Positions 2,285 through 34,554 of a stretch of DNA of 35,057 nucleotides are shown in pieces. This stretch comes from a virus, in the IMG/VR virus record IMGVR_UViG_3300020438_000124, positions 1 through 35,057 of that record; one strand, 5' to 3'. Position 1 is the first letter of the stretch. Each line of letters begins with the position of its first letter. The notes beneath the pieces were generated by a model, which did not search any database, had not been told where the DNA came from, and saw nothing but the letters and a program-made list of their open reading frames with translations. A program made the translations under genes and the position numbers.

Positions 2285-2306
2285 AAAAAAAGACCCTTAT
2301 GGGTCT
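2285..2306 (-). terminator. Intrinsic terminator
   Basis: The minus strand forms AGACCC-ATAA-GGGTCT (2306-2291) followed by a run of T up to 2285. It lies 9 bases after the stop of the 70-residue gene, so it can end the transcript from the ferredoxin/mazG side. Its T-run directly touches the ATG of the next gene at 2284. Confidence 0.75.
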
Positions 2307-11135: not shown

Positions 11136-11143
11136 TATTTATT
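11136..11143 (-). promoter_or_regulatory. Candidate late promoter AATAAATA
   Basis: It overlaps the hsp20 stop codon and lies exactly 20 bases before the GTG start at 11116, the same spacing as before gp3, gp20 and the gp67-like gene. Motif match only. Confidence 0.4.
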
Positions 11144-12076: not shown

Positions 12077-12456
12077 CTGATTCCTCCAGTGTCAAGTCTC
12101 TTTCTGATGTATGTAATTTGATCTTCAGTCAGAATAGAAAGAACTTGCTTCGCCTTTTCATTACTATAACCATAGTATTTCTTGACTAGTTCAAGGTTCT
12201 CCATCTCTTCCTTTCTAATCCAGGGAGAGAATCTTTTCTTGGATCTCAGAGTATTTAGTAAAAAATCATACTGTAACTTTTTATCAAGATGATGATTGAC
12301 ATTCATCTCATTCGCATACATCACAGCATCCAGATGACCAGACAAACATCTGTTAACAATATACGGAAGATATTTGGACTCAATATCCGGCATCTCGTCA
12401 ATAATATTGACTTTAGATTGATTGATACTATTCAACCAGTCCTTAAGTTCAGGCAT
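12073..12456 (-). CDS. 62: gp62 clamp-loader small subunit
   Basis: 127 residues from ATG 12456, shorter than T4 gp62 (187). The pattern INRCLSGHLDAV..ANEMN, LDKKLQYDFLLN and YYGYSNEKAKQVL is, from memory, that of cyanophage gp62, and position directly before regA fits the T4 order 45-44-62-regA. It partners gp44 to load the gp45 clamp. Here it is separated from gp44 by a methylase and an oxygenase. It overlaps dam by 8 bases and regA by ATGA. Confidence 0.88.
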   Translation of the reverse strand: MPELKDWLNSINQSKVNIIDEMPDIESKYLPYIVNRCLSGHLDAVMYANEMNVNHHLDKKLQYDFLLNTLRSKKRFSPWIRKEEMENLELVKKYYGYSNEKAKQVLSILTEDQITYIRKRLDTGGIR

Positions 12457-13354: not shown

Positions 13355-13967
13355 AAGTCAAAAAGAAGTTAGTAGAACAACTTACACGCTCAACGTTAGC
13401 ATTGAACGGGTAAACATAATGTAAGAGCCAGGCAGGGAAGATAAAAATATCACCTTCCTCAGGTGGAACAGGACCTAGTGAGATCATATTGTGTGGTGCC
13501 CACTGACCGTACTGCCATTCGATCATACCACCAGTAGGATTACGTCCTTGCTGATTGGGATGTTTCCATTCATCCTTTAGTTCTTCTGGAACAGAACCGT
13601 AGATAACACAAGAAAAATCACCACCATGGATGTGTGGAGGATTCCATTCACCCTTCCTCTGAACATTCACCCATGGTCTCTCAACACGAGCGTTCATCAG
13701 CATGTACGGTGGTGGTTGATAGGATCCAACCTTTGTACATTGATCAAGATAGTCGTCCAAATGAGCACGAAGTTCATCATAGAATTCGCCACTAAACGAT
13801 GAACTTACTTCTCGTTCAATGTTACCTGCAAGAATTTTGGGAATATATTCCTCACTGTTGTTGGCACATGCCATAATCTCTAGACGAGACTCTTCAGTGA
13901 TTTTATTTTTATACATGGTGGGACCAAAAGGTCGCATCACCACACCATCAGTAATTTCTCTGGTCAT
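13305..13967 (-). CDS. 2OG-Fe(II) oxygenase-family protein
   Basis: 220 residues resembling the 2OG-FeII_Oxy_5 type common in cyanophages: NPPHIHGGDFSCVIYG (H112, H114), a GDIFIFPAWLLHYVYPF segment (H183) and RVSCSTNFF with R194 as likely 2-oxoglutarate anchor. Such enzymes hydroxylate proteins, nucleic acids or small molecules. ATG 13967 forms an ATGA overlap with gp44, and the 3' end overlaps dam by 50 bases. Its position beside a DNA methylase suggests, but does not show, a nucleic-acid substrate. Confidence 0.85.
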   Translation of the reverse strand: MTREITDGVVMRPFGPTMYKNKITEESRLEIMACANNSEEYIPKILAGNIEREVSSSFSGEFYDELRAHLDDYLDQCTKVGSYQPPPYMLMNARVERPWVNVQRKGEWNPPHIHGGDFSCVIYGSVPEELKDEWKHPNQQGRNPTGGMIEWQYGQWAPHNMISLGPVPPEEGDIFIFPAWLLHYVYPFNANVERVSCSTNFFLTYESLSENPTAVSGGQE

Positions 13968-14908
13968 TTAAATTCACACTGTACCATAATTTCAGTCAAT
14001 GCTGCCAACATATTGATCTCTTGGTCAGCAACAAAAGCAGATTGATACTGATACTTTGCGATCACCAGAACTGCTTCAGGAATACTTTGTGGTTTTAGTG
14101 ATTCATACATCACATCATACACGTTACGGAGAATTGTGTTTGTGTCATTATCCATGTTCTGGACAATCCACTTTCTCACATTGGGAAATTCTTTTCTGGC
14201 GAGGTAACCCACCAGGTCTTGAACATTGCTATTCGCAAATGTTGAAACAATACCCGTGTCAATAGAACCGTTCGCCGCATATCGTTGACACTCATTTAGA
14301 ACTCTTCGCCAATCGGGCAAATGCTTCTGAATAACCGCCGCAACAACCTTCTTATCTGCCTCCACATTCTCGGCAGCAAGAATTTGATTGAGTCTCTTGA
14401 AGAACTCGGCAGCGATACTTTGCTTCTCTTTACCTGTGAGTGCGAAGTCCACGACACTGCATCTGCTGTGTAGTGGTTCGATGATCTTGTTTTTGTAGTT
14501 ACATGTAAAGATGAATCTACAGTTGTTATAAAACGCCTCAATGTTTGCCCGTAGTAGGAGTTGTACATCGTGGGTTGTGTTATCAGCCTCATCAATAATG
14601 ATGACCTTGTGTTTAGCATCCGAGAAAAGTGATGAGGTCGAAGCAAATGACTTTGCTTGATTCCGTACAGTGTCCAGGAATCTACCTTCATCGGATCCAT
14701 TGATGACATAAAAATCTGCTCCAATTTCTTTACACAGCGCCTTAGCGACAGTGGTCTTACCTATTCCAGGTGGACCGGAAAGAAGTAGATTAGGCAACTC
14801 CCCTTTATTTACAAAACCTTTCAGTGTATCCTTGATATGACTAGGAAGAATACACTCATCAATAGTTTTGGGACGATACTTTTCGACCCAAAGAAAATCA
14901 TCACTCAT
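13964..14908 (-). CDS. 44: gp44 clamp-loader ATPase
   Basis: 314 residues (T4: 319). AAA+ motifs are Walker A GPPGIGKT (45-52), Walker B IIIDEAD (D106, E107) and the SRC arginine-finger motif (S148-R149-C150). Four copies with one gp62 open and load the gp45 clamp on primer-template DNA, and the loaded clamp also activates gp55-dependent late transcription in T4. ATG 14908 overlaps the AbrB-like gene by 8 bases. Confidence 0.97.
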   Translation of the reverse strand: MSDDFLWVEKYRPKTIDECILPSHIKDTLKGFVNKGELPNLLLSGPPGIGKTTVAKALCKEIGADFYVINGSDEGRFLDTVRNQAKSFASTSSLFSDAKHKVIIIDEADNTTHDVQLLLRANIEAFYNNCRFIFTCNYKNKIIEPLHSRCSVVDFALTGKEKQSIAAEFFKRLNQILAAENVEADKKVVAAVIQKHLPDWRRVLNECQRYAANGSIDTGIVSTFANSNVQDLVGYLARKEFPNVRKWIVQNMDNDTNTILRNVYDVMYESLKPQSIPEAVLVIAKYQYQSAFVADQEINMLAALTEIMVQCEFK

Positions 14909-15216: not shown

Positions 15217-15392
15217 GACCAACGTTTAGTTTTAAGATACACAAGCATGTCATTACGAATATCCATGAGTTCATTAAAACACATTTGATTGTGAGCACAC
15301 TGACGTAGTTTGGGGTCTGGTTTTAGAACTGACTCAATGAAGAGATCAAGTCCTCGATTCCATTTGTCCTGTTTAGATTCGTTATCAAACAT
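15213..15392 (-). CDS. Hypothetical 59-residue protein
   Basis: ATG 15392 lies within the last codons of gp45 (8-base overlap). The same frame is open further upstream inside gp45, but that part is only gp45 read out of frame. The protein is helical and charged, with NRGLDLFIESVLKPDPKLRQ and two cysteines (RQCAHNQMC). Function is unknown; position suggests a replication accessory role. Confidence 0.7.
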   Translation of the reverse strand: MFDNESKQDKWNRGLDLFIESVLKPDPKLRQCAHNQMCFNELMDIRNDMLVYLKTKRWS

Positions 15393-16059
15393 TGTATTTG
15401 GAGTCTGGTTCCAGAGCGATAAAATACGTAAGGTTGAGAGCGTTGTTGACAAATCTTGCGAGGTTTTTTCGTGAGATGACAACTTGATAACTTCCTGGCA
15501 CAAGTTTGATGTTTTCGATCTTGAAGTTAAAGCAGAAATCAGCTGATGTTTCTCCAACTACGATCTGAAAATCATTAGAAGTATCGTTCTTACGGTCAGA
15601 GACCACAAGTTTTACGACACCTGCTTCGCCAACAACAGAAAGATCAGGTAGACCCAGGATGCCAGAAGATTTCATGATGCGTCGTAGTTGCTCATCCTGA
15701 ACAACAAACTCAACATCTTCAGAAGGTAATTGCATTTCCTTCTCAGGAGGAGCGATGATGACACTAGGGTCGCTAAAGAAATACTTTGAGCGATTCATCT
15801 TTCCCTCACGAATCATGGCATGAGTATCCTCAGTAGATACGTCGATTTCGGGATCGCGATACAATGCGACAGTATTCAGGAACTGTGGAAGGTCGTAGAT
15901 AGCAAAGTCCTTCGGAATATACTCCTCAATCTCTGCTTCTGCTAGCACATTCTGCATAGGAGAAATCGTGCGGATTTTACGTCCTTCCTTAAAGGAAAGA
16001 GACTGGTTAATAGAAGTAAAGTTCTGGAGGATCTTGTGGGTCTTATCGGACAGTTTCAT
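15385..16059 (-). CDS. 45: gp45 sliding clamp
   Basis: 224 residues, close to T4 gp45 (228). The N-terminus MKLSDKTHKILQNFTSINQS and the paired beta strands fit the trimeric PCNA-like clamp. It tethers gp43, and in T4 also acts as mobile enhancer for late transcription through gp55/gp33. TAATG overlap with the DUF3310 gene upstream. Transcription probably starts at the TTGACT-17-TATAAT promoter at 16388-16416. Confidence 0.95.
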   Translation of the reverse strand: MKLSDKTHKILQNFTSINQSLSFKEGRKIRTISPMQNVLAEAEIEEYIPKDFAIYDLPQFLNTVALYRDPEIDVSTEDTHAMIREGKMNRSKYFFSDPSVIIAPPEKEMQLPSEDVEFVVQDEQLRRIMKSSGILGLPDLSVVGEAGVVKLVVSDRKNDTSNDFQIVVGETSADFCFNFKIENIKLVPGSYQVVISRKNLARFVNNALNLTYFIALEPDSKYNV

Positions 16060-20854: not shown

Positions 20855-21894
20855 TACATTACCTCACATGCTTGCCTGTACAGGTCCTTAACAAGACTCT
20901 TGATCTTTGCCTTGCTTAGATCAGTTTCCAACTCATCAACGAACTTGTCTAGCAGCGTCAGAGTGTCTTCTGTTTGCTCAGCAGCGTCTTCACCAAAGTC
21001 CATCTGAGAGGTCTTCTCAACGATCTTCAGATCATAAGGATTAGCAGCAGACAGGGCATCAACAAACCTATCATAGTCTTTCTGACTAGACTTATTGACA
21101 ACGATTAACTTGACAATCTTATCCTTGTACTCAGCAAACTTAAACAGTTGTCTAGGGGTGTCATCATATTTGATAACCCTAAACATCTGAAACGGATTGT
21201 TGATTGTTTCTAGTTCGTGTGTTTCTGTATCGAAGATATGGAATCCTCGCAGATCACCCACGTCGTTCCAGAACATTTCGTAAGGGTTCCCAAGGTAGAA
21301 AATCCTACCGTCTGATGATCTGGTGTGATAATGACCAGAGAAGACCCGATCGAATTTTTGATATGGTTGGATGTCGTCTCCATCTTCCATTGTGTATCCA
21401 TGGTGAGCATAGAACCCGTTGAGTTCTAGATGACCCATGGCAACCTTAGCGGTAGACTCACGAATCTTCCTATATGTATACTCGCAGTTGTCAGAGTTAA
21501 TCCAAGGGATCATACAGATCTTACAACCGTCAATGTCTATGTCCTTACATTCAGTGAAAGTATTGACGTTATCGTACTCTCGTAGAAGCAGATCGATAGT
21601 ATTGACTTCGTTAGTATTTTTGTAGAACGCGGTGTGATTACCGACCACGGAGTGAAGGGTAATGCCAAGATCTCGGAGACGGTCAAAATAATTTCTTTGC
21701 GCCCAGTCCAAAGAATATAGGTCAATACCTTTACGACTGTCAAAAGTATCTCCCATGTCGATGACAGTTGTGATACCACGTTCCTGCAACGTTGGAAAAA
21801 AGACTTCTTCGTAGAACTTCTGAAAGTATTCATGAAATAATTTAGAACCTTTCTTAAATCCAAAGTGCTGGTCCGTGATAATAGCAACTTTCAT
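20854..21894 (-). CDS. 47: gp47 recombination nuclease (Mre11/SbcD-like)
   Basis: 346 residues (T4: 339). Metallophosphoesterase motifs appear in order: D8-x-H10 (ITDQHFG), D46-x-x-D49 (DMGDTFDSR), G85-N-H87, GHLELNGF and SGHYHTRS. It is the nuclease partner of gp46 for DNA end resection. ATGA overlap with gp55. Residue spacing shows no missing metal ligand. Confidence 0.96.
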   Translation of the reverse strand: MKVAIITDQHFGFKKGSKLFHEYFQKFYEEVFFPTLQERGITTVIDMGDTFDSRKGIDLYSLDWAQRNYFDRLRDLGITLHSVVGNHTAFYKNTNEVNTIDLLLREYDNVNTFTECKDIDIDGCKICMIPWINSDNCEYTYRKIRESTAKVAMGHLELNGFYAHHGYTMEDGDDIQPYQKFDRVFSGHYHTRSSDGRIFYLGNPYEMFWNDVGDLRGFHIFDTETHELETINNPFQMFRVIKYDDTPRQLFKFAEYKDKIVKLIVVNKSSQKDYDRFVDALSAANPYDLKIVEKTSQMDFGEDAAEQTEDTLTLLDKFVDELETDLSKAKIKSLVKDLYRQACEVM

Positions 21895-22358
21895 CTGTTA
21901 GTGCGGTATTGTACCGCGTCTTTTATTTGATTATACTCAGATGACTTATCAGATTCGTCTGCGACGAATACTTCGTCAAATCCAGATCTTTCGATAATCT
22001 TTTGTCTAATCTCTAGTTGCTTTTTCTCCTTCTGGATACGACGGAGGAAAGCATAGTGGATGATTTGGGTAAAGTAAGCAAAAGGATTGCTAGACTTCTC
22101 AGGATCAAAGTTATTAATATACTGGACACAGTTCTCAATTCCGTCACAAATCATGTCATCCTTGAACATGTAGTTGACGAAATTTGGTTTATAAGACAGG
22201 TGAGTAGCAATCTTTAGAAAACATTCACCTAGGTAATTTGTAATTCTAGGTTTAGGTTCTCCTGCTGCTTCAGCGTCTTTAATACCTTTTTTGTATACAA
22301 TAATAGCAGCAAGAAACTCCTTATTGTTTACATAATGTTCTGATCTTTTACGGACCAT
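21891..22358 (-). CDS. 55: gp55 late sigma factor
   Basis: 155 residues (T4: 185). A sigma region 2-like core is visible: ITNYLGECFLKIATHLS, then FDPEKSSNPFAYFTQIIHYA followed by FLRRIQKEKKQ. It directs RNA polymerase to TATAAATA-type late promoters, helped in T4 by gp33 and the loaded gp45 clamp. It has a host-type promoter just upstream, as expected for a gene needed before late transcription. No Shine-Dalgarno is seen in the short AU-rich leader. No gp33 homologue was recognised in this window. Confidence 0.93.
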   Translation of the reverse strand: MVRKRSEHYVNNKEFLAAIIVYKKGIKDAEAAGEPKPRITNYLGECFLKIATHLSYKPNFVNYMFKDDMICDGIENCVQYINNFDPEKSSNPFAYFTQIIHYAFLRRIQKEKKQLEIRQKIIERSGFDEVFVADESDKSSEYNQIKDAVQYRTNR

Positions 22359-22379: not shown

Positions 22380-22408
22380 ATTATAGCATAGCTTGACAAG
22401 ATCGGCAA
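22380..22408 (-). promoter_or_regulatory. Sigma-70 promoter for gp55-47-46 operon
   Basis: The minus strand reads TTGCCG (22408-22403), 17 bases ending in TGC, then TATAAT (22385-22380): a perfect extended -10 with a partial -35. Predicted start is near 22373, about 15 bases before the gp55 ATG. Confidence 0.7.
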
Positions 22409-24301: not shown

Positions 24302-24743
24302 AACCAGCACTAAACCTACGCCATTCGATAGCGTTCTTGATTTGGTAGGTTCTATTGGTAATTTGCTTTAGCACCTCTTCGAGATACTTGAGCATAATGT
24401 CGTAATACTCAATTTTGAGTTTTGCTTTCTGCATCCGCTCGTCAGCGTCGAGATACAGTTGCAACTCTGCTTTGTCTCTTACTTTGTATGGAAACGGTTC
24501 GTCGATATAAATCTGCGAATCCGCTTTCCCAGAATAATACTTACGACGTTCCAGTAGAATACCTGAAAACACAGTCTCTGCTTGCTTTTTTAGCGACAGT
24601 GTTGTATTATATAGGTCGTAATATTTGGCGTGTAATTGGGGAACCTTTAGCGACTCTGTGTCCAGCTCATCTGGATTGATAACAGAATCGGTTGCCCACA
24701 TTTTCTGGATAACTTCCAGAGAAAAACTAGACTTCCTTTCCAT
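24294..24743 (-). CDS. uvsY: UvsY recombination mediator
   Basis: 149 residues from ATG 24743 (T4: 137), overlapping gp3 by 17 bases and uvsW by 8. It is all helical, with ERRKYYSGKADSQIYIDEPF and the helix MLKYLEEVLKQITNRTYQIK near the end, as in cyanophage UvsY. UvsY loads UvsX onto gp32-covered ssDNA. The order gp3-uvsY-uvsW fits cyanophage synteny. Confidence 0.9.
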   Translation of the reverse strand: MERKSSFSLEVIQKMWATDSVINPDELDTESLKVPQLHAKYYDLYNTTLSLKKQAETVFSGILLERRKYYSGKADSQIYIDEPFPYKVRDKAELQLYLDADERMQKAKLKIEYYDIMLKYLEEVLKQITNRTYQIKNAIEWRRFSAGYG

Positions 24744-25242
24744 CAATGTTCATCAAATCAAACATAGTGTATTTGAACACTGCCGTAGCAGTAAAATATT
24801 CTTGTTCCTGAATTGTGGCATTGAAGGGAATACCTTCTAAAGACACAGGAAATATATCTCTAAACTTTACTCTTCCCGAAACCCTTAGACTGCTGTTTAG
24901 AATCAACAGCGTAGCATCACTGCGGTTGTCGAGTTTAGACTGACCTAGATCTTCTGGATATCCTAGTTCGCGCATCCAGTTGTAGATCTGGTGGTAGTTT
25001 TCCATGTTCTCATCGACAAGGAAATCTACTCTTAGATCTTCATACTGAATCTTATCGCCAGGAATAGGAATATCTCTAAGATAGTTTGACTGTCTAGCAG
25101 TTCCCATAGAAATACCAGGCAGATTTGCCTTGTTACACAAGAAATCTACCTTACGACATCTATTCAAAACCAGTTGGAATCCACCAATAGAAAGAAAATT
25201 CCTATTAGATACCTGATTCAACTTGCACGGATTGTTAGACAT
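24727..25242 (-). CDS. 3: gp3 tail completion/sheath stabiliser protein (likely)
   Basis: 171 residues (T4 gp3: 176). The protein begins MSNNPCKLNQVSNRNFLSIG and contains FQLVLNRCRKVDFLCNKANLPG and FLVDENMENYHQIYNWMREL, which recalls the tail-tube-like fold of gp3/gp19 family proteins; cyanophages carry gp3 directly before uvsY. It caps the tail tube and stabilises the sheath in T4. A CTAAATA late motif lies exactly 20 bases before the ATG. The call rests on synteny and remembered pattern. Confidence 0.75.
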   Translation of the reverse strand: MSNNPCKLNQVSNRNFLSIGGFQLVLNRCRKVDFLCNKANLPGISMGTARQSNYLRDIPIPGDKIQYEDLRVDFLVDENMENYHQIYNWMRELGYPEDLGQSKLDNRSDATLLILNSSLRVSGRVKFRDIFPVSLEGIPFNATIQEQEYFTATAVFKYTMFDLMNIDGKEV

Positions 25243-25261: not shown

Positions 25262-25268
25262 TATTTAG
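25262..25268 (-). promoter_or_regulatory. Candidate late promoter CTAAATA for gp3
   Basis: The motif overlaps the stop codon of the 54-residue gene and lies exactly 20 bases before the gp3 ATG. Confidence 0.55.
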
Positions 25269-25429
25269 TAACGATACTCTTGGATATTATCTAGCAACTT
25301 GTTAAGCATAGTATGAGCACCTTGATGCCATTCATCACCTTTACTTTGGTATTTTCCATCATACAATTCTTTCTTCAGTTTCATTGTACGATTAAGGATC
25401 TCTTCTCGCTCTAATCTGTTCTTAGGCAT
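25265..25429 (-). CDS. Hypothetical 54-residue helical protein
   Basis: ATG 25429 to TAA 25265. The charged helical sequence begins MPKNRLEREEILNRTMKLKK, contains LYDGKYQSKGDEWHQGAH and ends in LLDNIQEYRY. Two helices joined by a Gly/Lys loop suggest a small dimeric helical hairpin. GGGGAG lies about 12 bases upstream. It starts inside the last codons of the 25-residue ORF. No family name is assigned. Confidence 0.75.
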   Translation of the reverse strand: MPKNRLEREEILNRTMKLKKELYDGKYQSKGDEWHQGAHTMLNKLLDNIQEYRY

Positions 25430-25499
25430 ATGCGTTTTTGACTCCCCAAAAAACCAAGTAAATTACTGGTGACAGAATGAGCGATGCTTTTATTAACAT
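25422..25499 (-). CDS. 25-residue membrane peptide
   Basis: ATG 25499 to TAA 25422, overlapping the start of the 54-residue gene by 8 bases. The peptide begins MLIKASLILSPVIYLVFWGV and ends KNAYA: one transmembrane helix with a basic N-terminus. No clear ribosome-binding site. It is the first possible ORF after the extended -10 promoter at 25522-25530. Confidence 0.45.
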   Translation of the reverse strand: MLIKASLILSPVIYLVFWGVKNAYA

Positions 25500-25521
25500 G
25501 GCACTACGTTCACGTATACTA

Positions 25522-25530
25522 ATTATAGCA
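25522..25530 (-). promoter_or_regulatory. Extended -10 promoter after a terminator
   Basis: The minus strand reads TGCTATAAT then TAGTA. No -35 is seen because the terminator at 25537-25564 occupies that place. It would drive the two small ORFs and could feed gp3-uvsY-uvsW. Confidence 0.6.
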
Positions 25531-25536
25531 AAACAT

Positions 25537-25564
25537 AAAAAAAAGACCCCCACTTGTGTGGAGG
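25537..25564 (-). terminator. Intrinsic terminator after the 60-residue gene
   Basis: The minus strand forms CCTCCAC-ACAA-GTGGGGG (one T-G pair), then TC and eight T. It lies 22 bases after the stop at 25587. Confidence 0.85.
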
Positions 25565-25586
25565 CGCTGACTATTTGTAGCAAGAA

Positions 25587-25769
25587 TCACATAAGCACTT
25601 CTTTACAGATTCTTTTACACGATGCTTGATTTGAGGTATCACACTCAATCAAACATTCATAATAATCGTTTAGTAAATTTTTTTGATTTTCGTATTCCTC
25701 CCAATTTTTTACATCGTTATCTGAACGACCCCATTCTGATAATTGGTTACTCGATAGTAGGTTATGCAT
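25587..25769 (-). CDS. Hypothetical 60-residue cysteine-containing protein
   Basis: ATG 25769, flanked by terminators on both sides, so it is a one-gene unit. The protein is acidic and helical with three cysteines in the C-terminal third (ECLIECDTSNQASCKRICKE), possibly a disulphide or metal site. The 143 bases before it (25770-25912) hold the gp23 terminator and AT-rich DNA with TATACT/TATATA but no convincing -35. No known family. Confidence 0.6.
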   Translation of the reverse strand: MHNLLSSNQLSEWGRSDNDVKNWEEYENQKNLLNDYYECLIECDTSNQASCKRICKEVLM

Positions 25770-25864
25770 AAGGTTGCATTGCCAGAGGTCACTTTATATA
25801 GTATACTTTGTGTTTGTTTACTAACATTAGTTGCTTTTTTACATTACTACAAATTAGTACACAT

Positions 25865-25892
25865 AAAAAAAGAGACCCCCGAAGGAGTCTCT
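25865..25892 (-). terminator. Intrinsic terminator after gp23
   Basis: The minus strand forms AGAGACTCC-TTCG-GGGGTCTCT (9 pairs with a stable UUCG loop, one T-G pair) followed by at least six T. It lies 20 bases after the gp23 stop and closes the virion block. Confidence 0.92.
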
Positions 25893-25912
25893 GTACGGTA
25901 TATAAACCGTGA

Positions 25913-27331
25913 TCACATAAGGTTTTGGACCTTGACGCGACGGTAGTAGCGGTTGGAACCAGCAGTGATACGTCCGAGACCCTGTGTGGTGCCTTCGGCG
26001 TAGGGGTTCGAGACCATGCCGTAGCGAGTCTTGAATCCGATTTTTGGCTGGAAGGTGTCCTGACCGACGGCACGAACCATCTGGAGAGGAACATAAGGAC
26101 AGTAGAACAGACCTGCGTCGTAAGGGGAAGAACCCTTATAACCCATGACGTAGTACTGATCGGCGCTTAGGTTAGCAGCGAAAGGATCGATGTAGACCTT
26201 GAAGCGACCATTTAGCAAACCAGCGAAGGTGTTGCCGGTGTCGTCAACGGTTAGGTTGGCGTTCAGGGCAGGCGTATAATCCAGTTGTCCAGCAGCGGCT
26301 AGAGCAGAAGCAACGTCAGCAGAGCAAAGGATGATGTTACCCTTCCCGCGACGAGTTCTCTGAGCGATTGCGTTCGCATCTCTTTCGAGTTGGAACATCA
26401 TACCCTTAAACTTCTCAACCATCCAACGTCCGTTGGAGTCAACGTCGAGGTCGAACACGCCACCAGTGGCAGTGTTGGTTTGGGCACCAGGCTCAGCAGC
26501 CTTGTAGATGGTACGGATGATCTCGCGGTTGATCTCAGCAAGAATCTCAGTGCTGAGGATGTTAGCGAGTTCAGCCTCGGCGTCTAGACCGTGGATCGCC
26601 TTAAGGTCCTGAGCAAGCTCAAGTGAGTACTCAGCTTTCAGTGCTCTGGAGCGAGCAGCAACAGTGACCTTTTCGATGCTGAACGACATCTCGCGGAAGT
26701 CGTTGCTAGAAGCATCACCTAGAGCTTCCAGTTTCTGAGCATTAAATCCCTGACCAGTGTTATAAGCGTTACCAGCACCACCGTTAAGGATGGAAGGATT
26801 AGTACCGCCTTGGGCAGTTGTACCGAAACCAACGTCGGAGTCGCCGTCAACAGTGCCAAGGGCGTAATCGCCTTGATCGGTGAAGGAGGCGTTGGAGTTC
26901 TGAGCGGAGAATGCCGAATCAGGCTCGTTGAAGAATGCTTCAGTTCCGTTCTGGTTGTCGTAACGTGAACGCATCGCGAAGATGAGTCCAGTAGGACCGT
27001 TCATTGGTTGAACGCCAGCAAGGTCATAAGCGACCAAGTTGGGCATTGCGCGACGGATGAGGCTGATTAGAACGGGGTCAAAACCAGCAACAGGACCACC
27101 AGAGGCAGCACCGCCACCAAAGGCAGGGGAGGAAGCAGTTCCACCACCATTACCTAGTGAGGTGGTAGGGGGTGCTTCGGCGAGGAACGCACGGTCCTCT
27201 CTTAAAAATCTTTCTTGGTTTTCGAGAAGTTGGGCAGTAACAGCTCTACGGTGATTGTCCTTGATATTATCAAGACCTTCAGCTTCTAGTAGAGGTGCCC
27301 ACTTCTTCTGTAATTGAGAAGAATTGAACAT
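25913..27331 (-). CDS. 23: gp23 major capsid protein
   Basis: 472 residues. The N-terminal part (1-52) is a scaffold-facing propeptide ending in FLAE, followed by A53; L50-A51-E52 fits the gp21 cleavage rule, like the site after E65 in T4 gp23. The rest is an HK97-fold capsid protein of T4 type, with DLAGVQPMNGPTGLIFAMRS and a long NREIIRTIYKAAEPGAQT region. AAGGA lies about 9 bases before the ATG. A Gly/Ala/Ser-rich linker follows the cleavage site. Confidence 0.96.
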   Translation of the reverse strand: MFNSSQLQKKWAPLLEAEGLDNIKDNHRRAVTAQLLENQERFLREDRAFLAEAPPTTSLGNGGGTASSPAFGGGAASGGPVAGFDPVLISLIRRAMPNLVAYDLAGVQPMNGPTGLIFAMRSRYDNQNGTEAFFNEPDSAFSAQNSNASFTDQGDYALGTVDGDSDVGFGTTAQGGTNPSILNGGAGNAYNTGQGFNAQKLEALGDASSNDFREMSFSIEKVTVAARSRALKAEYSLELAQDLKAIHGLDAEAELANILSTEILAEINREIIRTIYKAAEPGAQTNTATGGVFDLDVDSNGRWMVEKFKGMMFQLERDANAIAQRTRRGKGNIILCSADVASALAAAGQLDYTPALNANLTVDDTGNTFAGLLNGRFKVYIDPFAANLSADQYYVMGYKGSSPYDAGLFYCPYVPLQMVRAVGQDTFQPKIGFKTRYGMVSNPYAEGTTQGLGRITAGSNRYYRRVKVQNLM

Positions 27332-27365
27332 TTGGGGGTTTCCTTAAGGGGAAGTTTTAGTTAAT

Positions 27366-28391
27366 TTAGTTGAACTGGGTTAGAGCGCGTAAGTATGCAT
27401 CCATTGCTGGAGAAACGTCTTCGCCAACAGGGGCATCTTCAGAGATAACCTCTTGCGAATCTGTTACAGGTTTCTGAGCAAAATATGCTTCGCGAAGTGT
27501 AACAAGTTTTTCGCGATATTGTTCCTCACTTTCAAACTCAACACCTTCAGCAAGACCCGCTAACTTTTCCTTTTGGGAAAGGGCAAGACCTTCACATACG
27601 TCATCTAGGATGTTGTCAGAAACAGATTCGGAAAGACGCTTAGTTAAAGCGACATTGCTCTCAATCTGTTCGTTGAGCTTGTTTTCCATCTCATCAAGTT
27701 TAGAGACCATTGCCTCTAGTACATCGTATTTTTCTTCAGGGAGTTGTACATAATGTTCTTCAAAAAGTCCCTTGAGACCTGTCATAAAGGACTCCGAAAG
27801 TTCGCCACGGATACCGCTTTGGACTTGGAGTTCGTTTTCGTTGATCCATTCTTGAGCAACGTACTCAAGATAACCATCAACGCGCTCAGTAAGTTCAGAC
27901 TTGATAGCTTCTACTTGCTCTACAAGTGTCTGCTCGTACTGAGATTCGATTGCTTCTTTAGCGGAAGCAATACGAGTTTTTACTACTGCTTCGAAAACAG
28001 TTTTTGCTTTTTCTTGGAACTCATCGGAAAGCTCTTCGCCTTCGAGGAGAGCAGCAACGTCCTCCTCCAGATTGAGTTCTTCTTCTGCTTCTACTTCTTC
28101 GTTAGCGCCACGACCATAACCAGAACTCTTTAGAGCACCGGGTCCTGGCATCGTGGTGGAAGCGGCAGCATTTTTAAAATGCGGATCGCCTTTCTGTGCG
28201 AGAGTAGCAGAAGGGGTCTTTAGTTTGTTAGACCCATCGTCTGGTCTGGAGTTGGTTGGAGTAGGACCGCCGAGATCTTCAATTGCTCCTGCATCAGGAA
28301 CATAATTAGGTGCCTTAGGCATTGGATCGGCAGACTTAGCACCCTTCGTTACCTGGTTCTCCATCTCATGTAGTTCGTTATTAACGCTCAT
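27366..28391 (-). CDS. 22: gp22 prohead scaffold core protein
   Basis: 341 residues, acidic, with long coiled-coil helices from about 120 to 280 (VEQVEAIKSELTERVDGYLE, LDEMENKLNEQIESN) and a Pro/Gly-rich N-terminal part. Position between gp21 and gp23 matches T4. It forms the inner scaffold and is then cut to small peptides by gp21; several L/I-x-E sites are present. GGAAAC precedes the ATG, and a CTAAATA late motif lies 36 bases upstream. Longer than T4 gp22 (269). Confidence 0.93.
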   Translation of the reverse strand: MSVNNELHEMENQVTKGAKSADPMPKAPNYVPDAGAIEDLGGPTPTNSRPDDGSNKLKTPSATLAQKGDPHFKNAAASTTMPGPGALKSSGYGRGANEEVEAEEELNLEEDVAALLEGEELSDEFQEKAKTVFEAVVKTRIASAKEAIESQYEQTLVEQVEAIKSELTERVDGYLEYVAQEWINENELQVQSGIRGELSESFMTGLKGLFEEHYVQLPEEKYDVLEAMVSKLDEMENKLNEQIESNVALTKRLSESVSDNILDDVCEGLALSQKEKLAGLAEGVEFESEEQYREKLVTLREAYFAQKPVTDSQEVISEDAPVGEDVSPAMDAYLRALTQFN

Positions 28392-28426
28392 TTGAAGTTT
28401 CCGAGAGTACCTGAAATTGCTAGTAT

Positions 28427-28433
28427 TATTTAG
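28427..28433 (-). promoter_or_regulatory. Candidate late promoter CTAAATA for gp22-gp23
   Basis: Located between the gp21 stop and the gp22 ATG, 36 bases from the latter. Confidence 0.5.
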
Positions 28434-28436
28434 GGT

Positions 28437-29087
28437 TTAGATATTTGACAGGAAGTCTGCAAAGAGGCGCAATTTATTAGCCTCATAGAGTTCTCTGTCT
28501 ATCATAGTAATATTTAGAGATTCTTTAATCTCTTCACATTTTTTCTCGCGCAAAACTGATCCTTCCCACACCCACTCTTTGCCTTCCATGATGCCATTAA
28601 CAAAAGCATCTGGGGCAGAAGGGTCTGCTACAATATCAGCAGCAGTGGCAAGCATGAAGTCTTCGCCAACATAATTTACACCGTCGCGTTGGACAATGGA
28701 ACCCATGCCGCGAGAGGAGACACCCAACTTAACCCCATCCGCCAGAAGGGATTCGGCGATTTTACCCATTGGTGTGGATAGGATTTGTGCCTTGCCGATA
28801 AAGTTATTACCTTCCTGACGTAGTTCCACAATTTTGTGAGAAACACGATCAAGGTTAATTTGTGGACCATCAGGATGACCCAGTTCACCTAGTGCCCGAC
28901 CTGTGGATACAAAAGCATCAGTATAACGCTTTACTTCGTTACACATGGTAGCGATTGGATAGCAACGCCTATTGCGATTGACTACCTCTGCTTGTAGAAA
29001 TGGTCCCTGAATGTATAGGGTTTTCTTACCGTCTTTTTCTTCGGTAAGAATATCTACTGATTCGATTTCTTCGGAAATTAGTTTCAT
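28437..29087 (-). CDS. 21: gp21 prohead core protease
   Basis: 216 residues (T4: 212). The assemblin-type serine protease triad appears as H71 (GELGHPDGP), a serine in GVSSRGMGS (S124/S125) and D151 in AADIVADPSAPDA. It matures the head by cutting gp22, gp23 and packaged proteins after L/I-x-E. ATGA overlap with the upstream 188-residue gene. Potential substrates in this window are gp23 (after E52) and the 287-residue protein (after E10). Confidence 0.94.
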   Translation of the reverse strand: MKLISEEIESVDILTEEKDGKKTLYIQGPFLQAEVVNRNRRCYPIATMCNEVKRYTDAFVSTGRALGELGHPDGPQINLDRVSHKIVELRQEGNNFIGKAQILSTPMGKIAESLLADGVKLGVSSRGMGSIVQRDGVNYVGEDFMLATAADIVADPSAPDAFVNGIMEGKEWVWEGSVLREKKCEEIKESLNITMIDRELYEANKLRLFADFLSNI

Positions 29088-29650
29088 CCTACTTGTACCT
29101 CTTGAACGTAAGCGTCACATCCGCTAGAAGTTGCTGGATAAAGAACTGGAATTACGGATTTTGCTACAGTAGCAGTACCGGCAAATGCTCCGGCACCTGA
29201 TGCATCGTGAGAAACAGTGATCGTCTGAGCGTACTCGTTAAATCTCTGTGGACTTGATACTGCGGTTACTTCTTTGTGGACCGCATTGTAATCACCAACG
29301 GAAGAACCGCTGATAGTTACATAATCACCAACCTTGATTTTGGTATCAGGATGGTTAAGTGTTAGAACTGTAGGATTAGCGGCAGTTGCTGCTGTCACCG
29401 TTGCATTTGCTGGATGACCTACACGAAGTAGTTTCTCGCCGTTCTTGTTTACGTGACACGTAACAAGACCAACACCACCAGAAGTAGTCGTGTTGCATAC
29501 GCCGATGTGACCGCTCTTCTTTTCGTCAGTGACGGAAATAGAAAGGGTGCCAGTCTTGATTACGATGGCGTCCTTAGTTACAGCGGTAGCATTTGCTGAT
29601 GCAAGATTACCTACATTTTGTACTGGACGGATTGGTTGTGATGCGCTCAT
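29084..29650 (-). CDS. Uncharacterised 188-residue beta-rich protein in the prohead cluster
   Basis: It sits in ATGA overlaps between the gp67-like gene and gp21, the place of gene 68 in T4, but does not resemble gp68. The sequence is rich in Ala, Thr, Val and Gly with beta-strand motifs (VLTLNHPDTKIKVGDYVTIS, TITVSHDASGAGAFAGTATV) and a short C-terminal cysteine segment. This composition is typical of head decoration or fibre domains. A virion surface role is inferred from composition and place. Confidence 0.75.
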   Translation of the reverse strand: MSASQPIRPVQNVGNLASANATAVTKDAIVIKTGTLSISVTDEKKSGHIGVCNTTTSGGVGLVTCHVNKNGEKLLRVGHPANATVTAATAANPTVLTLNHPDTKIKVGDYVTISGSSVGDYNAVHKEVTAVSSPQRFNEYAQTITVSHDASGAGAFAGTATVAKSVIPVLYPATSSGCDAYVQEVQVG

Positions 29651-29913
29651 TCTTCCTCTTGAGGTTCTGGATCAACTTCAGGTTCTGGTTGGATTTCGGT
29701 CTCAGGTTCAGTTTCGAGTTCTGCTTCTACCTCTGGTTCCTCTGGTTGCTCTGGCACTTCTGGTTTGTCACCAAAAAGACCTGCGGCAACTTCGGGACGC
29801 ATGGCATCAACTTTTTCGCCTGCTTTAGAATAAAGAACACCTTTGATGTAATCGGATACTTCTGAAGGAGAAGCGTCACCAACCATTTTGTTAATCAATT
29901 CAGCAGAATCCAT
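29647..29913 (-). CDS. 67: gp67-like prohead core protein
   Basis: 88 residues. A helical N-terminus (AELINKMVGDASPSEVSDYI) is followed by a very acidic Pro/Glu-rich tail (about 50-88). T4 gp67 is a similarly small protein with an acidic tail, encoded just after gp20, so synteny and composition agree. In T4 it is part of the scaffold core and is cut by gp21. A late motif AATAAATA lies exactly 20 bases before the ATG. Confidence 0.75.
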   Translation of the reverse strand: MDSAELINKMVGDASPSEVSDYIKGVLYSKAGEKVDAMRPEVAAGLFGDKPEVPEQPEEPEVEAELETEPETEIQPEPEVDPEPQEEE

Positions 29914-29932
29914 AATTTTTTATAAAGTGATG

Positions 29933-29943
29933 TATTTATTTAT
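29933..29943 (-). promoter_or_regulatory. Candidate late promoter ATAAATAAATA
   Basis: In the gap between gp20 and the gp67-like gene; AATAAATA at 29933-29940 is exactly 20 bases before ATG 29913. Confidence 0.55.
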
Positions 29944-29946
29944 CAG

Positions 29947-31611
29947 TTAGATCTTTGCTTTTTTAATATCAATACCAGGAGACTCGGTTGATGACTCATC
30001 TGGCGCGGGATCTTTACCATTTTTTCCAAGATCAGTGTTGGCACCATTCAGTGACATTTGACCCTGCATCATCATTTGCTGAGTCTCCAACGGAACACCC
30101 GTGCCCAATGAATTCTCTTCCTCCATCTCAGAGTCCATCTCCATGATCTCCTCATCCGTCTGGCGAAGGATCTTACGTTTAACATAGTCCCTACTGTAGT
30201 AAGTACCTATGTATGGTTCGATCTGAACCATGAGGTTGAGACGCTCGTTCATCAACTCTGCCTCTTTAAGTTCAGCAAAGTGATTGTCATACAGATAGTC
30301 GAACTGGATGTGTTCGGACATCTGATCCCAATCCTCAGGGGTGACAATGTTTTTGAGGATTAGTTGTGTCTTAAGTAGATCGAGGAATAGTGAAGAAAAC
30401 CGCTTGCGGAGACGACCCACAAACTTGGAGAACATAAGTTCATCACGAAGAATCTCGCTGCTTCTTCCGAGGTTAAAACCTCCGTCAGCGCCAATACGAG
30501 ACTCTGGTACGTTAAGACTTCTGTAAAGTTTTTTCTGGAAATAATCTACGTCTGTCAGTTCACCCAGATTTTGACCACCTGGTAGTGTAGAAATTTCTGT
30601 TCCACGACCACCTTCACGCCGAGGCAACCAGAAGTCTTCCAGCATGGACATGAACTTCTTGTCGTCTTTGATCTCACCAGTGTTGGCGTCATACACCAAC
30701 TTGTTCCGGTAACGACTCATGACATCGCGAAGATATTGCTCTGCCTTTACTTTTGGTAGATTACCAACGTCGATGTAAAAAATACGTCTTTCTGGCGCAC
30801 GCGACATGCGATAGATAACCAGCGAGTCCTCAATCATTCTAAGTTGATTGAGAGACTTAATTGCCTTATGAAGATAAGACAATGTGATGTGCTTATTGCG
30901 ATCTACAAGACCAGAAGTAACATGGCAGATGGCATCTTTGGCAATTTTAACGCCTTTGCCATGCATACTTCCATACTTCTGTGCCGTGCCCTGCGGATAA
31001 TATGTGTAGAATTCTACGACTTCAGCATCTTTACCACCCTTAGAAGGATCTTGTAAATCCTGCATTGGAGGAGATATTCTGTTTCTATTAGCGTCCTCTT
31101 TGGGTTTGATACGCATCAACTTGATCTTGAGCGGATCAATATAACGCACTTCTTTCAGACCTTCTTGGGGTTTCTGAAGGTCAATTACTTTATGATAGAA
31201 AATTCTTCCGTCAACATACCAGTTGCGGAAGATTTCATGTGATTTTTTATCAAACTCAAGTGTATCTTTAATATACTTAAATTCGTTTCTAATAACCTTC
31301 TTCAGACTCGCACTGGTTTGGAGATTATCTAAATCAATTTCAATAGGACTATCGTTCAAATCTGAAACGATAGCTTCATTCACAACATGCTCAATAGCGG
31401 TGTCACACTCGGGGTGCAGCGCCATTTCGCGATACTTTCTGATAATGTCAAATTCAGTTTTGTAAACACCTTCGATGTCTACATACTGACCGTAAAAACC
31501 AGAAGAAAGATAATAGTCAGACCCATCCTCGTCATTAGGAGTGACGGGACTAACTATACTTTTTGATTTCTGGTCCTCATTATCAATAGAGAATCCAAAA
31601 AGTTTCGCCAT
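29947..31611 (-). CDS. 20: gp20 portal vertex protein
   Basis: 554 residues (T4: 524). Portal features include the conserved core VYRMSRAPERRIFYIDVGNL, the WLPRREGGRGTEISTLPGGQ segment and SRIGADGGFNLGRSSEI, all typical of T4-like gp20 used as a cyanophage marker gene. Twelve copies form the DNA entry ring and initiate prohead assembly. The C-terminus is acidic and Met/Gln-rich. A CTAAATA late motif lies exactly 20 bases before the ATG. Confidence 0.97.
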   Translation of the reverse strand: MAKLFGFSIDNEDQKSKSIVSPVTPNDEDGSDYYLSSGFYGQYVDIEGVYKTEFDIIRKYREMALHPECDTAIEHVVNEAIVSDLNDSPIEIDLDNLQTSASLKKVIRNEFKYIKDTLEFDKKSHEIFRNWYVDGRIFYHKVIDLQKPQEGLKEVRYIDPLKIKLMRIKPKEDANRNRISPPMQDLQDPSKGGKDAEVVEFYTYYPQGTAQKYGSMHGKGVKIAKDAICHVTSGLVDRNKHITLSYLHKAIKSLNQLRMIEDSLVIYRMSRAPERRIFYIDVGNLPKVKAEQYLRDVMSRYRNKLVYDANTGEIKDDKKFMSMLEDFWLPRREGGRGTEISTLPGGQNLGELTDVDYFQKKLYRSLNVPESRIGADGGFNLGRSSEILRDELMFSKFVGRLRKRFSSLFLDLLKTQLILKNIVTPEDWDQMSEHIQFDYLYDNHFAELKEAELMNERLNLMVQIEPYIGTYYSRDYVKRKILRQTDEEIMEMDSEMEEENSLGTGVPLETQQMMMQGQMSLNGANTDLGKNGKDPAPDESSTESPGIDIKKAKI

Positions 31612-31630
31612 TACATACGGTCTTTTCGTC

Positions 31631-31637
31631 TATTTAG
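31631..31637 (-). promoter_or_regulatory. Candidate late promoter CTAAATA for gp20
   Basis: In the 30-base gap between gp19 and gp20, exactly 20 bases before the gp20 ATG. Confidence 0.55.
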
Positions 31638-31641
31638 GTGA

Positions 31642-32280
31642 TCAGACGATGGCGTCTTGAGCATCCTTATCGAAGGCTTCCCAGTACTGGACCTGCAAGG
31701 TCACCTGGAATTCCTCAATAGTATCAGCAGAATCGTAAGAAAGTTCGATACCACTGACAGCACTTGGCCAACATCCATTCATTCTGTAAGAACGAAGAAC
31801 TGGGAGTTGATTAGCGTTCAGTTCGCCTGGTGTCAATAGATCACCGGCACCACGACCTAGTTGATGAACAGTCCAATTTGCCTGATAATCAGCAGGGTTG
31901 ATTGTACCAGAACCATCAGATACTTTGACGATGAAGTTAGACCACTTCTCAAAAGCATCACGGATATTAAAGTCCCCATCGTTCATGATGGTGATTGTCC
32001 AAGGATCAAAGCGTCTGTCACCAGCAACTTTGAGTTGGCGTCCACGGAAAGGAACTACAACTTCAGCAATGTTAGAAGCAGGGAGCTGTGCTCCCTTGAT
32101 CATCATGCGGAACTTGAGATCTTCCTCTACTGTGGAAACAGAGAGTTGATCTCCGATCGCTGTAGGGAAGTTAAACTCAACTTCGAACAGATTGGGGCGA
32201 GCGCCCCCTTGGACTAGACGACTCTTAAAATCGTCGATAGTGCGATCACCGATTGGTGGAATGTTACGGTTTAATGGCAT
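31642..32280 (-). CDS. 19: gp19 tail tube protein
   Basis: 212 residues, longer than T4 gp19 (163). The N-terminal half (RPNLFEVEFNFPTAIGDQLS, KGAQLPASNI, PFRGRQLKVAGDRRFDPWTI) is the tail-tube fold, and SYRMNGCWPSAVSGIELSYD with EEFQVTLQVQYWEA is the conserved end. Hexamers stack to form the tube inside the sheath. The ribosome-binding site AGGAGGT is excellent, fitting a protein made in many copies. Confidence 0.95.
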   Translation of the reverse strand: MPLNRNIPPIGDRTIDDFKSRLVQGGARPNLFEVEFNFPTAIGDQLSVSTVEEDLKFRMMIKGAQLPASNIAEVVVPFRGRQLKVAGDRRFDPWTITIMNDGDFNIRDAFEKWSNFIVKVSDGSGTINPADYQANWTVHQLGRGAGDLLTPGELNANQLPVLRSYRMNGCWPSAVSGIELSYDSADTIEEFQVTLQVQYWEAFDKDAQDAIV

Positions 32281-32288
32281 TAGTAGTT

Positions 32289-32295
32289 ACCTCCT
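32289..32295 (-). promoter_or_regulatory. Strong ribosome-binding site of gp19
   Basis: AGGAGGT, a full match to the anti-16S sequence, 8 bases before ATG 32280 and just after the gp18 stop. It is the strongest Shine-Dalgarno noted in the window. Confidence 0.8.
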
Positions 32296-32297
32296 GA

Positions 32298-34514
32298 TCA
32301 AACTGTGCCGACGACTTCTGAGAAAGATACGCCTGTGCGTGTAGCAACAAACGTTAGACCGATGAAGTTGATCGATCTTGCTGGTTTTACAAAGATATCC
32401 GCTACAAACTCATTGCGGTCAATAACATCTGGGGTGTTGTTGGTATCGTCACAAACAAGTAGGAAGTCTTGGATACCACGCTTTGACTGAACGTCGCGTA
32501 GGAAAGGTTCTACGATGTTCACGAAGTTGGTTCTTGTACCAGCATCGTTGAATTCGAAGAGTTGAGCGTTAGCAGCGTTCTCGATTGCTTGCTCAATAGT
32601 GATGAACAATCTACGAACATTGATACGATCAAAGGCGCTTTCATAAGCAAGACCAGTCTTATCACCAAATAGAACTGTACCAGAACCAGGTGATGTGATT
32701 ACTGGATTGATTCTGCTACTGTAGAGTCTGTCTCTTGCGTCCTGACCAGGATTAAAGGAAAGTTTTACAGCGTTTGCTAGAGCACCACGAGTGGTACCAG
32801 CAGGAGAGAACCATGGGAACTGATTGATATCAGTTCTTACCATTAGACCAGCGATATCGTTAGAAAGTGGTACGTAGTTAAAACGCTTGTTAAAGCGATC
32901 ATAAGTGTACTGATAACCACTATCAAAGATGGCGTATGAGGAGGAACTTAGTGGAGCAAAGAACTCAAGTACATTCTTAAGTTGAGTTGCTGCGTTAGTT
33001 ACGCCTACAACAGCATCTCTGTTTGGAGAGATCGTTGTAACACAATCCTTACGTGCTTCACAAATACTGATTAGTTTCTGTGCCTTCGCTTGTTCTTCTT
33101 CCTTACTCTTAAAGGCAGAACCTTGTAGAAGGAAACGGATGTCAGCGTTGACAGGATCAGCAAGTTTTTCGTAACTAGTTAAAATGTCACCTAGGTAAGC
33201 ATCGTACTGGCCAATTGTTCCTTTATAATCCTTACCACCAGATAGTCTGTAAGAAACAGAACCAAGAGAGTTAAAGTTAACGTTTCTTGCGTCCTGACCC
33301 CAGGCACCAGCAGCAGGGGCGATAGGAGTAACTCCAGTGCTGAATCCGTTTGCTAGTGGTTGTGTGTTGCGGAAACTGTCAGCAGCATTTACTAGAGAGA
33401 TACCAGCAAATACATACTCGGAGTTCTCAGCAAGATAATCTTTGTAGTAGACTGCCTTGTTAGGACTTACTTCAGCGTCTTTTGCCTTGGACAGGTTACC
33501 GTGCTTCTCAAGGATGCTGTTAGGAGAACCTGATACATCACCGTCGGTGTCGAAAACAACAACGTTTAGACCATCGTTATCACCGCCTCTTTCTATTACA
33601 TAACCATTTGTTCCTGGTTTTGGTAGTAGAGATCTCCAAGCAAGAGTGACATTATCTTCGCCACCGTCAGCAACAGAGGTTAGAGCATTTTGCTGACTAT
33701 ACCAGTCAGAAGGAGAATGAGCTGCTGTAGTGAAACCTAGTGGGTTACCGATAGAAGAAACGCCGATAGCAGAACCGGTCTTAAACTCTAGTTGGGAACC
33801 TTCTTGGTAGTTTCTTGCGGTCTCTAGACCAGCAACTACAACTGAGGTAACCTTAACGTCGATAAAACCAGAACCAACCTTGGTGATGATACCCTTAAGG
33901 TGATCGTTTACATCAGGAGTTCCGGTTGTACCGATACCGATGTTTGTACCACCTAGTTTCTGAGTTACCGCCATACCGACGATAACGCCTTTAGTACCGA
34001 TGGCACCGCCACCGATAGCAGGGAATACACCTGCAGTATTAACACCAGAAATTCTTTGGTCAGCAGCGTTGTCAATAACGCAAACCTTTAGACCGTCACC
34101 CCAGAAACCAGGGTTCTTAGCGATCCAGTAGGCGCTTGTGATGCCTGCAAAATTGTTGTTGTAGTGATCTACATTCTCAATCGTTAGACTGGCAACAGAA
34201 GAAACACCAACAGCAGCGTTGGCGTTGACGAGCTCAGAACCGCTTGCTCTGACAACTTCTAGTTGACCACCATAACTTAGGAAATTCGAAGCAGCATACC
34301 ACGTTTCGTAGTGATAATCAGTGGTTCCTGCCCCAGGACCACCAAATACTTCGACTAGTTGCTTTTCACTAGTGATTCTGGTTACTTCATTGACAGGTCC
34401 CTGTTTAAAAGGACCAGCAATACCAGCGGAGACGTTGATAGAAGCGTTTATCCCGCCTCGGGTTAGATCAACCTCTCTTACACTAATACCTGGGGACGAT
34501 AAACGTAGTGCCAT
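32298..34514 (-). CDS. 18: gp18 contractile tail sheath protein
   Basis: 738 residues (T4: 659). The N-terminus SSPGISVREVDLTRGG and INVSAGIAGPFKQGPVNEVT and the C-terminal part (SFNPGQDARDRLYSSRINPV, VRRLFITIEQAIENAANAQL, PARSINFIGLTFVATRTGVS) are typical of the T4 sheath family. The middle region is variable, with extra surface-domain sequence. GGGAG lies 5 bases before the ATG. A CTAAATA late motif is 34 bases upstream. Confidence 0.97.
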   Translation of the reverse strand: MALRLSSPGISVREVDLTRGGINASINVSAGIAGPFKQGPVNEVTRITSEKQLVEVFGGPGAGTTDYHYETWYAASNFLSYGGQLEVVRASGSELVNANAAVGVSSVASLTIENVDHYNNNFAGITSAYWIAKNPGFWGDGLKVCVIDNAADQRISGVNTAGVFPAIGGGAIGTKGVIVGMAVTQKLGGTNIGIGTTGTPDVNDHLKGIITKVGSGFIDVKVTSVVVAGLETARNYQEGSQLEFKTGSAIGVSSIGNPLGFTTAAHSPSDWYSQQNALTSVADGGEDNVTLAWRSLLPKPGTNGYVIERGGDNDGLNVVVFDTDGDVSGSPNSILEKHGNLSKAKDAEVSPNKAVYYKDYLAENSEYVFAGISLVNAADSFRNTQPLANGFSTGVTPIAPAAGAWGQDARNVNFNSLGSVSYRLSGGKDYKGTIGQYDAYLGDILTSYEKLADPVNADIRFLLQGSAFKSKEEEQAKAQKLISICEARKDCVTTISPNRDAVVGVTNAATQLKNVLEFFAPLSSSSYAIFDSGYQYTYDRFNKRFNYVPLSNDIAGLMVRTDINQFPWFSPAGTTRGALANAVKLSFNPGQDARDRLYSSRINPVITSPGSGTVLFGDKTGLAYESAFDRINVRRLFITIEQAIENAANAQLFEFNDAGTRTNFVNIVEPFLRDVQSKRGIQDFLLVCDDTNNTPDVIDRNEFVADIFVKPARSINFIGLTFVATRTGVSFSEVVGTV

Positions 34515-34547
34515 CCTAACTCCCGTATTACCCGTTTAGACTAAAAC

Positions 34548-34554
34548 TATTTAG
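34548..34554 (-). promoter_or_regulatory. Candidate late promoter CTAAATA for gp18
   Basis: In the 79-base gap before gp18, 34 bases from its ATG; flanking sequence reads TCTAAATAG. Confidence 0.5.

Follow-up and report, generated by a model that had tools for sequence, protein, structure and literature searches.

Putative T4-type late promoters in a marine cyanophage fragment with a gp55 that lacks a clamp-binding tail

The question raised by the viral record IMGVR_UViG_3300020438_000124 (positions 1 to 35,057; the whole stretch of 35,057 bases is called the window below) is whether the short box [A/C]TAAATA found ahead of several virion genes marks late promoters of the T4 type, read by the late sigma factor gp55 of the phage. 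Almost all genes of the window lie on the minus strand. The window comes from a marine cyanophage of the T4-like kind (Kyanoviridae-like). Among named phages, marine cyanophages are nearest to it, with about 75% DNA identity across part of the late region, and the gp55 most similar to its own in the phage collection is that of Marine virus AG-345-D19 (87% identical). The original prediction described a late-promoter network with a fixed 20-base spacing and a relaxed first base. The network is strongly supported by placement, strand, gene class and conservation in relatives, and to the reading of the boxes as T4-type late promoters used by gp55 we give a probability of roughly 0.93. This kind of promoter is already known and is well conserved here in a new cyanophage fragment. 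With such boxes, the late operons of a cyanophage that has not been cultured can be read from sequence alone.

Placement of the boxes in the window

Eight genes have a box shortly upstream, and the positions and distances predicted for them were correct in every case. Distances are counted from the last base of the motif to the first base of the start codon; leader lengths are in nucleotides (nt) and genes without a name are given by protein length in amino acids (aa).

34548..34554, minus strand: CTAAATA, putative gp18 late promoter; distance 34, predicted leader about 28 nt
31631..31637, minus strand: CTAAATA, putative gp20 late promoter; distance 20, predicted leader about 14 nt
29933..29943, minus strand: two overlapping copies of ATAAATA before the gp67-like gene; distances 20 and 24
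28427..28433, minus strand: CTAAATA, putative late promoter of gp22 and probably of gp23 too; distance 36
25262..25268, minus strand: CTAAATA, putative gp3 late promoter; distance 20; the TAA in the box is the stop codon of a 54-aa open reading frame (ORF)
11136..11142, minus strand: ATAAATA, putative late promoter of the 243-aa gene; distance 20; overlaps the Hsp20 stop codon
2306..2312, minus strand: ATAAATA, putative late promoter of the 297-aa gene; distance 22
112..118, minus strand: CTAAATA, putative late promoter of the gene at position 81; distance 31; overlaps the stop codon of the 287-aa gene

Raw counts of the motif were near chance, with 8 copies of CTAAATA against 5.9 expected and 7 of ATAAATA against 6.9 expected. 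Such counts are uninformative; placement is what matters. All 15 [AC]TAAATA sites of the window are on the minus strand and none is on the plus strand. The motif stands 15-40 bases upstream of 8 genes. When the gene starts were shifted circularly 20,000 times, 0.49 genes had it on average and never more than 4; cores permuted without a change in composition reached at most three genes, and the antisense strand gave none. Box carriers are more frequent among virion genes (5/9) than among other genes (3/38; Fisher P = 0.0036). The four virion genes without a box all lie downstream of others: gp19, gp21 and gp68 directly follow within apparent operons, and gp23 follows gp22.

Several boxes had been said to overlap the stop codon of the preceding gene. 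This applies to the 243-aa gene, the gene at 81 and gp3, and not to gp20, gp67 and gp22, where the stop is 3-4 bases off. The 54-aa ORF whose stop codon lies inside the gp3 box occupies 25265-25429, between gp23 and gp3; in relatives, the ends of related ORFs (DEYW, EEYR) are found ahead of the gp3 box.

Conservation in related phages

As relatives we used 80 contigs encoding a close gp23; gene starts were placed by homology, the box was sought within 60 bases, and distinct sequences were counted. The box was present before gp18 (18/18), gp20 (25/26), gp67 (39/39), gp22 (38/38) and gp3 (41/48), and several relatives share the doubled gp67 box. Before uvsW it was found in 3 of 36, and no box was detected before gp21 (0/45), gp68 (0/30), uvsY (0/45), gp55 (0/29), gp47 (0/21) and gp46 (0/18), nor on the antisense strand of the relatives' upstream regions. 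The box of the 243-aa gene is kept in 6/6 relatives at a distance of 20-21. For the 297-aa gene, it is retained in contigs L305-L308 and L310, and L309 has CTAAATA at a distance of 13.

Complete genomes gave a similar picture. Counts on the two strands were 27/0 for CTAAATA and 34/2 for ATAAATA in S-BM1, 23/2 and 37/1 in Syn9, and 33/2 and 36/5 in S-SSM7; in T4, CTAAATA occurred 13/18. The 60 bases ahead of genes contained 2.3-3.2 copies of [ACGT]TAAATA per kb and coding sequence 0.22-0.39 per kb (S-BM1, G001, Syn9, S-PM2, S-SSM7), an upstream excess of at least about sevenfold across the cyanophage genomes examined. A motif equally common before early genes or in coding sequence would have spoken against the network; instead, it is enriched upstream of genes and its count before gp55, gp46, gp47 and uvsY is zero.

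Transcription from the boxes

The motif, its placement, its conservation, the class of genes that it precedes and the homology of gp55 are established here. Start sites, late timing and recognition by gp55 are predictions. In the proposed mechanism, gp55, a sigma region 2 protein, would bring the RNA polymerase of the host to one -10-like element, [A/C]TAAATA, at positions -12 to -6; with T4 as the model, a -35 element is probably not used. Transcription is predicted to start 6 bases past the last A of the box, the start point given for T4 in PMC1524935 and PMC2988020. If this holds, the genes with 20-base spacing, i.e., gp3, gp20, gp67 and the 243-aa gene, would have leaders of about 14 nt, and the others leaders of 16-30 nt. 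Each virion promoter would head a short operon: gp18-19, gp20, gp67-68-21, gp22-23 and gp3.

32298..34514, minus strand: gp18, tail sheath (phrog_23, 3e-116)
31642..32280, minus strand: gp19, tail tube (phrog_45); without its own motif, Shine-Dalgarno sequence present; likely co-transcribed with gp18
29947..31611, minus strand: gp20, portal (phrog_213, 2e-214)
29647..29913, minus strand: gp67-like gene (phrog_14164 and position)
28437..29087, minus strand: gp21, prohead protease (phrog_207); operon-internal
27366..28391, minus strand: gp22, scaffold (phrog_237)
25913..27331, minus strand: gp23, major capsid protein (phrog_138)
24727..25242, minus strand: gp3 or tail-tube-like gene (phrog_45)

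Some observations weigh against this reading. In T4, gp23 is strongly late and its P23 is the model late promoter. Among relatives of the window, only 2 of 57 distinct sequences have a box before gp23 and 55 do not, and a conserved gp23 box was rejected; gp23 probably depends on the promoter of gp22, or else on a variant. Other [AC]TAAATA sites in the window (at 28511, 12252, 23227, 6474, 18687 and 1043) are within genes or far from starts and may be chance occurrences. An LxFL-type C-terminal tail was not found in gp55 of the window, of closely related contigs, or of S-PM2, Syn9, S-BM1, S-SSM7 and P-SSM2. Finally, gp33 is absent from the gene list of this fragment; in other cyanophage genomes it is located elsewhere.

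Comparison with known late promoters

The boxes resemble T4 late promoters (PMC2988020, PMC7892883; PDB 7d7c/7d7d) in having a single -10-like element ending in TAAATA before virion genes, and the window encodes a sigma-2-type gp55, a gp45 clamp and a gp44/62 loader as T4 does. They differ in the base at -12, which is A or C in the window and A in T4, and in the T at -13, which is not conserved. The single copy of the full octamer TATAAATA in the window does not precede a virion gene, and a T(-13)A(-12) requirement does not hold here; a longer fixed motif, NTAAATACTATT, was searched for in the record and not found. Further differences are the lack of a promoter of its own at gp23 and a gp55 of 155 aa, compared with 185 in T4, that ends without the clamp-binding motif.

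The published cyanophage late motif, known by 2010 from S-PM2, Syn9 and others, is NATAAATA (PMC2984593; method in PMC3037559). The clade, motif core and gene classes are all the same in the window. Whereas A is fixed at -12 in the published consensus, C often takes its place in the window and in the cyanophage genomes that we counted (22-61%). The heptamer CTAAATA, with C at -12, is identical to the Aeh1 late motif, published in 2006 together with a diverged Aeh1 gp55 (PMC1524935). Unlike the window, Aeh1 has nearly always C at -12 (88%); its gp55, which shares 31% identity with that of the window, has diverged much further and keeps a clamp-binding-like tail, LGGLSFLED. Relaxation at -12 (Aeh1) and at -13 (cyanophages) has been published, and both were filed as T4-type late promoters.

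Alternative explanations

The boxes might have arisen by chance, from AT-rich sequence between genes or from stop-codon context, given the TAA that they contain. The near-expected raw counts and the three overlapped stop codons are in line with this, but chance does not account for the difference between eight genes and the three or fewer reached by permuted cores, for the empty antisense strand, or for near-perfect conservation at five gene starts combined with absence at others. We regard its probability as close to negligible. It is also very improbable that, in a real network, the exact 20-base spacing is a functional constraint, e.g., a 14-nt leader needed for ribosome loading. Four of the eight window genes do have a distance of 20 (P about 0.0035, post hoc), and in relatives the short-spaced gp20, gp67 and gp3 nearly lack Shine-Dalgarno sequences (0-12%), whereas gp18 (83%) and gp19, gp21 and gp68 (70-91%) mostly have one; gp22 is at 32%. 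Such scarcity is not peculiar to late genes, as uvsY, uvsW, gp55, gp47 and gp46 are also poor in them (0-19%). Orthologue distances, however, vary from 6 to 54: 19-31 for gp20, 19-29 for gp67, 32-49 for gp22, 35-54 for gp18 and 6-46 for gp3 (a few second sites further upstream left out), and even the 243-aa gene has 20 or 21. In T4, S-BM1, Syn9 and P-SSM2, distances peak broadly at 20-30. The fixed spacing of the original prediction is refuted as a rule by the orthologues. Two classes recur: genes with short leaders that lack Shine-Dalgarno sequences (gp20, gp67, gp3) and genes with long leaders (among them gp18, in which such a sequence is mostly present); exact spacing is unconstrained.

A further possibility is that gp55 of the window phage has a shifted specificity, with a derived preference for C at -12. 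It had been proposed that the first base was relaxed from TATAAATA, but this was mis-registered: CTAAATA spans -12 to -6 of the T4 promoter, and the base exchanged for C is therefore A(-12) and not T(-13). The same A-to-C change at -12 is described for Aeh1 in PMC1524935 and PMC2988020. C is found at -12 in 5/8 promoters of the window, with a mixed base at -13, and its share is 0% in T4, 20-61% in KP15, KVP40, HTVC008M and the cyanophages apart from the window, 64% in phiM12 and highest in Aeh1. Moreover, the -12 base of T4 flips into a pocket of gp55 and stacks on Y97 (PMC7892883), and this pocket differs in the window: the DNA-contacting residues N13, L54, R57, F86, H95, Y97 and T99 of T4 gp55 (PMC7892883) align with N, L, K, F, F, Y and T (NLRFHYT to NLKFFYT). 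In favor of a shift is also the 61% C in the related G001. Against it, A and C alternate at -12 between genes of one cyanophage and between phages at one gene, KVP40 has the T4 pocket residues and still about 25% C, and Syn9 and S-BM1 keep R57 with about 40% C; with the exception of Aeh1, the C fraction roughly tracks genome GC. A shift is unlikely on these data, and tolerance of A or C at -12 fits better than a switch. Of the altered gp55 specificity suggested originally, a weak, clade-wide sense stands; it is no mark of this phage, since A or C at -12 is common in T4-like phages.

Individual pocket substitutions were considered as causes of C at -12. R57K was rejected because Syn9, S-BM1 and HTVC008M keep R and yet use C, and H95F because KVP40 keeps H and uses C, and Aeh1 keeps H and prefers C. 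No single pocket residue of gp55 tracked the -12 base among the phages compared.

gp55 without a clamp-binding tail

The original prediction placed gp55, gp45, gp44 and gp62 in the window, and all were found by PHROG matches.

21891..22358, minus strand: gp55, late sigma factor, 155 aa (phrog_234, 4e-68; PDB 7d7c gp55, 1.5e-17)
15385..16059, minus strand: gp45, sliding clamp (phrog_223; PF09116)
13964..14908, minus strand: gp44, clamp loader (phrog_168)
12073..12459, minus strand: gp62, clamp loader (phrog_225)
6239..8734, minus strand: gp43, DNA polymerase (phrog_262); its C-terminus TLESFFI resembles a clamp-binding tail

The gp55 of the window has the sigma-2 homology and the DNA-pocket residues of the gp55 family. 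Its match to T4 gp55 of the cryo-electron microscopy complex 7d7c covers the sigma-2 region, and the protein stops at ...EYNQIKDAVQYRTNR. Cyanophage gp55 ends in a conserved SxYNxIKDxxQxR segment, and a clamp-binding tail is present in gp55 of T4 (SLDFLYE), Aeh1, KVP40 and KP15. HTVC008M and several of its relatives have the tails KLEYFM and KLEFFM; other contigs retrieved with the pelagiphage query end differently, with no clear tail. The gp43 of cyanophages with a tailless gp55 keeps a clamp-type tail, as in the window. The C-termini of gp33 are VLPL in Syn9 and S-BM1, KLPL in S-SSM7, KLMLV in S-PM2 and KFFSI in G001, and not LDFLL. The review PMC2988020 describes S-PM2 gp33 as without an obvious clamp motif and states that the gp55 motif is retained, which conflicts with the tailless S-PM2 gp55 end found here. 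None of the open-access papers found reports the missing gp55 tail.

With gp55 being without the clamp-binding tail, activation by gp45 through gp55 may or may not work as in T4. Since C-terminally truncated T4 gp55 still gives basal transcription (PMC7892883), basal use of the cyanophage late promoters is expected.

Boxes 6 bases before ATG in pelagimyophages

In HTVC008M, 11 of 26 upstream boxes are exactly 6 bases from the ATG (P about 5e-13), several of them at virion genes. Four of four starts checked (head completion, tail-tube-associated baseplate protein, baseplate wedge and tail completion protein) match those annotated in GenBank. Among 80 contigs retrieved with HTVC008M gp23, there were 58 distinct sites at distance 6 versus at most 8 at any other distance, and 39 of 64 gp3 starts had a box at distance 6. 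The gp3 box at this distance also occurs in eight contigs near the window (L003, L007, L008, L009, L011, L012, L018 and L056), and Mosig and Melnitz have it at only 6 and 3 genes, respectively. With the T4-type start point, a distance of 6 means that the mRNA would begin at the A of the ATG, and pelagimyophage late mRNAs are therefore probably leaderless. The strong form of this pattern was seen only in HTVC008M and in gp3 of its relatives, and that of Mosig and Melnitz is weaker. In the window itself, leaderless late mRNA was rejected, as no box is at distance 6. In the open-access papers found, leaderless transcripts were mentioned only in reference lists or for unrelated organisms.

We tentatively propose, at somewhat less than even odds, that cyanophage gp55 lost its clamp tether, with late transcription uncoupled from replication or relying on another contact, and that the pelagimyophage promoters 6 bases before ATG give leaderless mRNAs. 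The apparatus behind this conserved late promoter differs from that of T4, with a tailless gp55 here and, in the sister group, a start codon that would coincide with the predicted transcription start. Both features bear on the generality of clamp-coupled late transcription in T4-related phages, a question raised in PMC2988020, and are the parts most worth specialist attention.

Other features of the window

The late promoter of the 297-aa gene would be nested in a terminator.

2285..2305, minus strand: terminator-like hairpin GACCC-ATAA-GGGTC followed by T7, between the promoter and the start of the 297-aa gene (folded)

The predicted +1 of the 297-aa gene (2300) is the first base of the hairpin loop; late transcripts would thus begin past the 5' arm and escape the terminator that stops read-through. 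The geometry of box and hairpin is kept in L305-L308; L310 has the same geometry with a different stem, and L309 has a box without a hairpin. Alternatively, ATAAATA at this site may only be the A-rich side of a bidirectional terminator.

10385..11116, minus strand: 243-aa gene that starts with GTG and has a nucleotidyltransferase-like GG...DxD segment (phrog_36119, unknown function)
1391..2284, minus strand: 297-aa gene of unknown function (phrog_26930)

A Pfam search gave no match for either protein. The protein encoded at 8731-10140 is a radical SAM protein that also has a B12-binding-like domain; it matched no PHROG. The genes named in the window are gp18, gp19, gp20, gp67-like, gp68-like, gp21, gp22, gp23, gp3, uvsY, uvsW, gp55, gp47, gp46, gp45, gp44, gp62, regA, Hsp20, gp43, uvsX, gp41, ferredoxin and MazG.

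Extended -10 promoter-like sequences, TGnTATA[AC]T, are present on the minus strand at 22388 (before gp55), 18153 (before the 68-aa gene), 16396 (before the 101-aa gene/gp45 group) and 11597 (before Hsp20), and none of these genes or groups has a late box. The stretch TTGTCAAG...TGCTATAAT ahead of gp55 recurs in many relatives.

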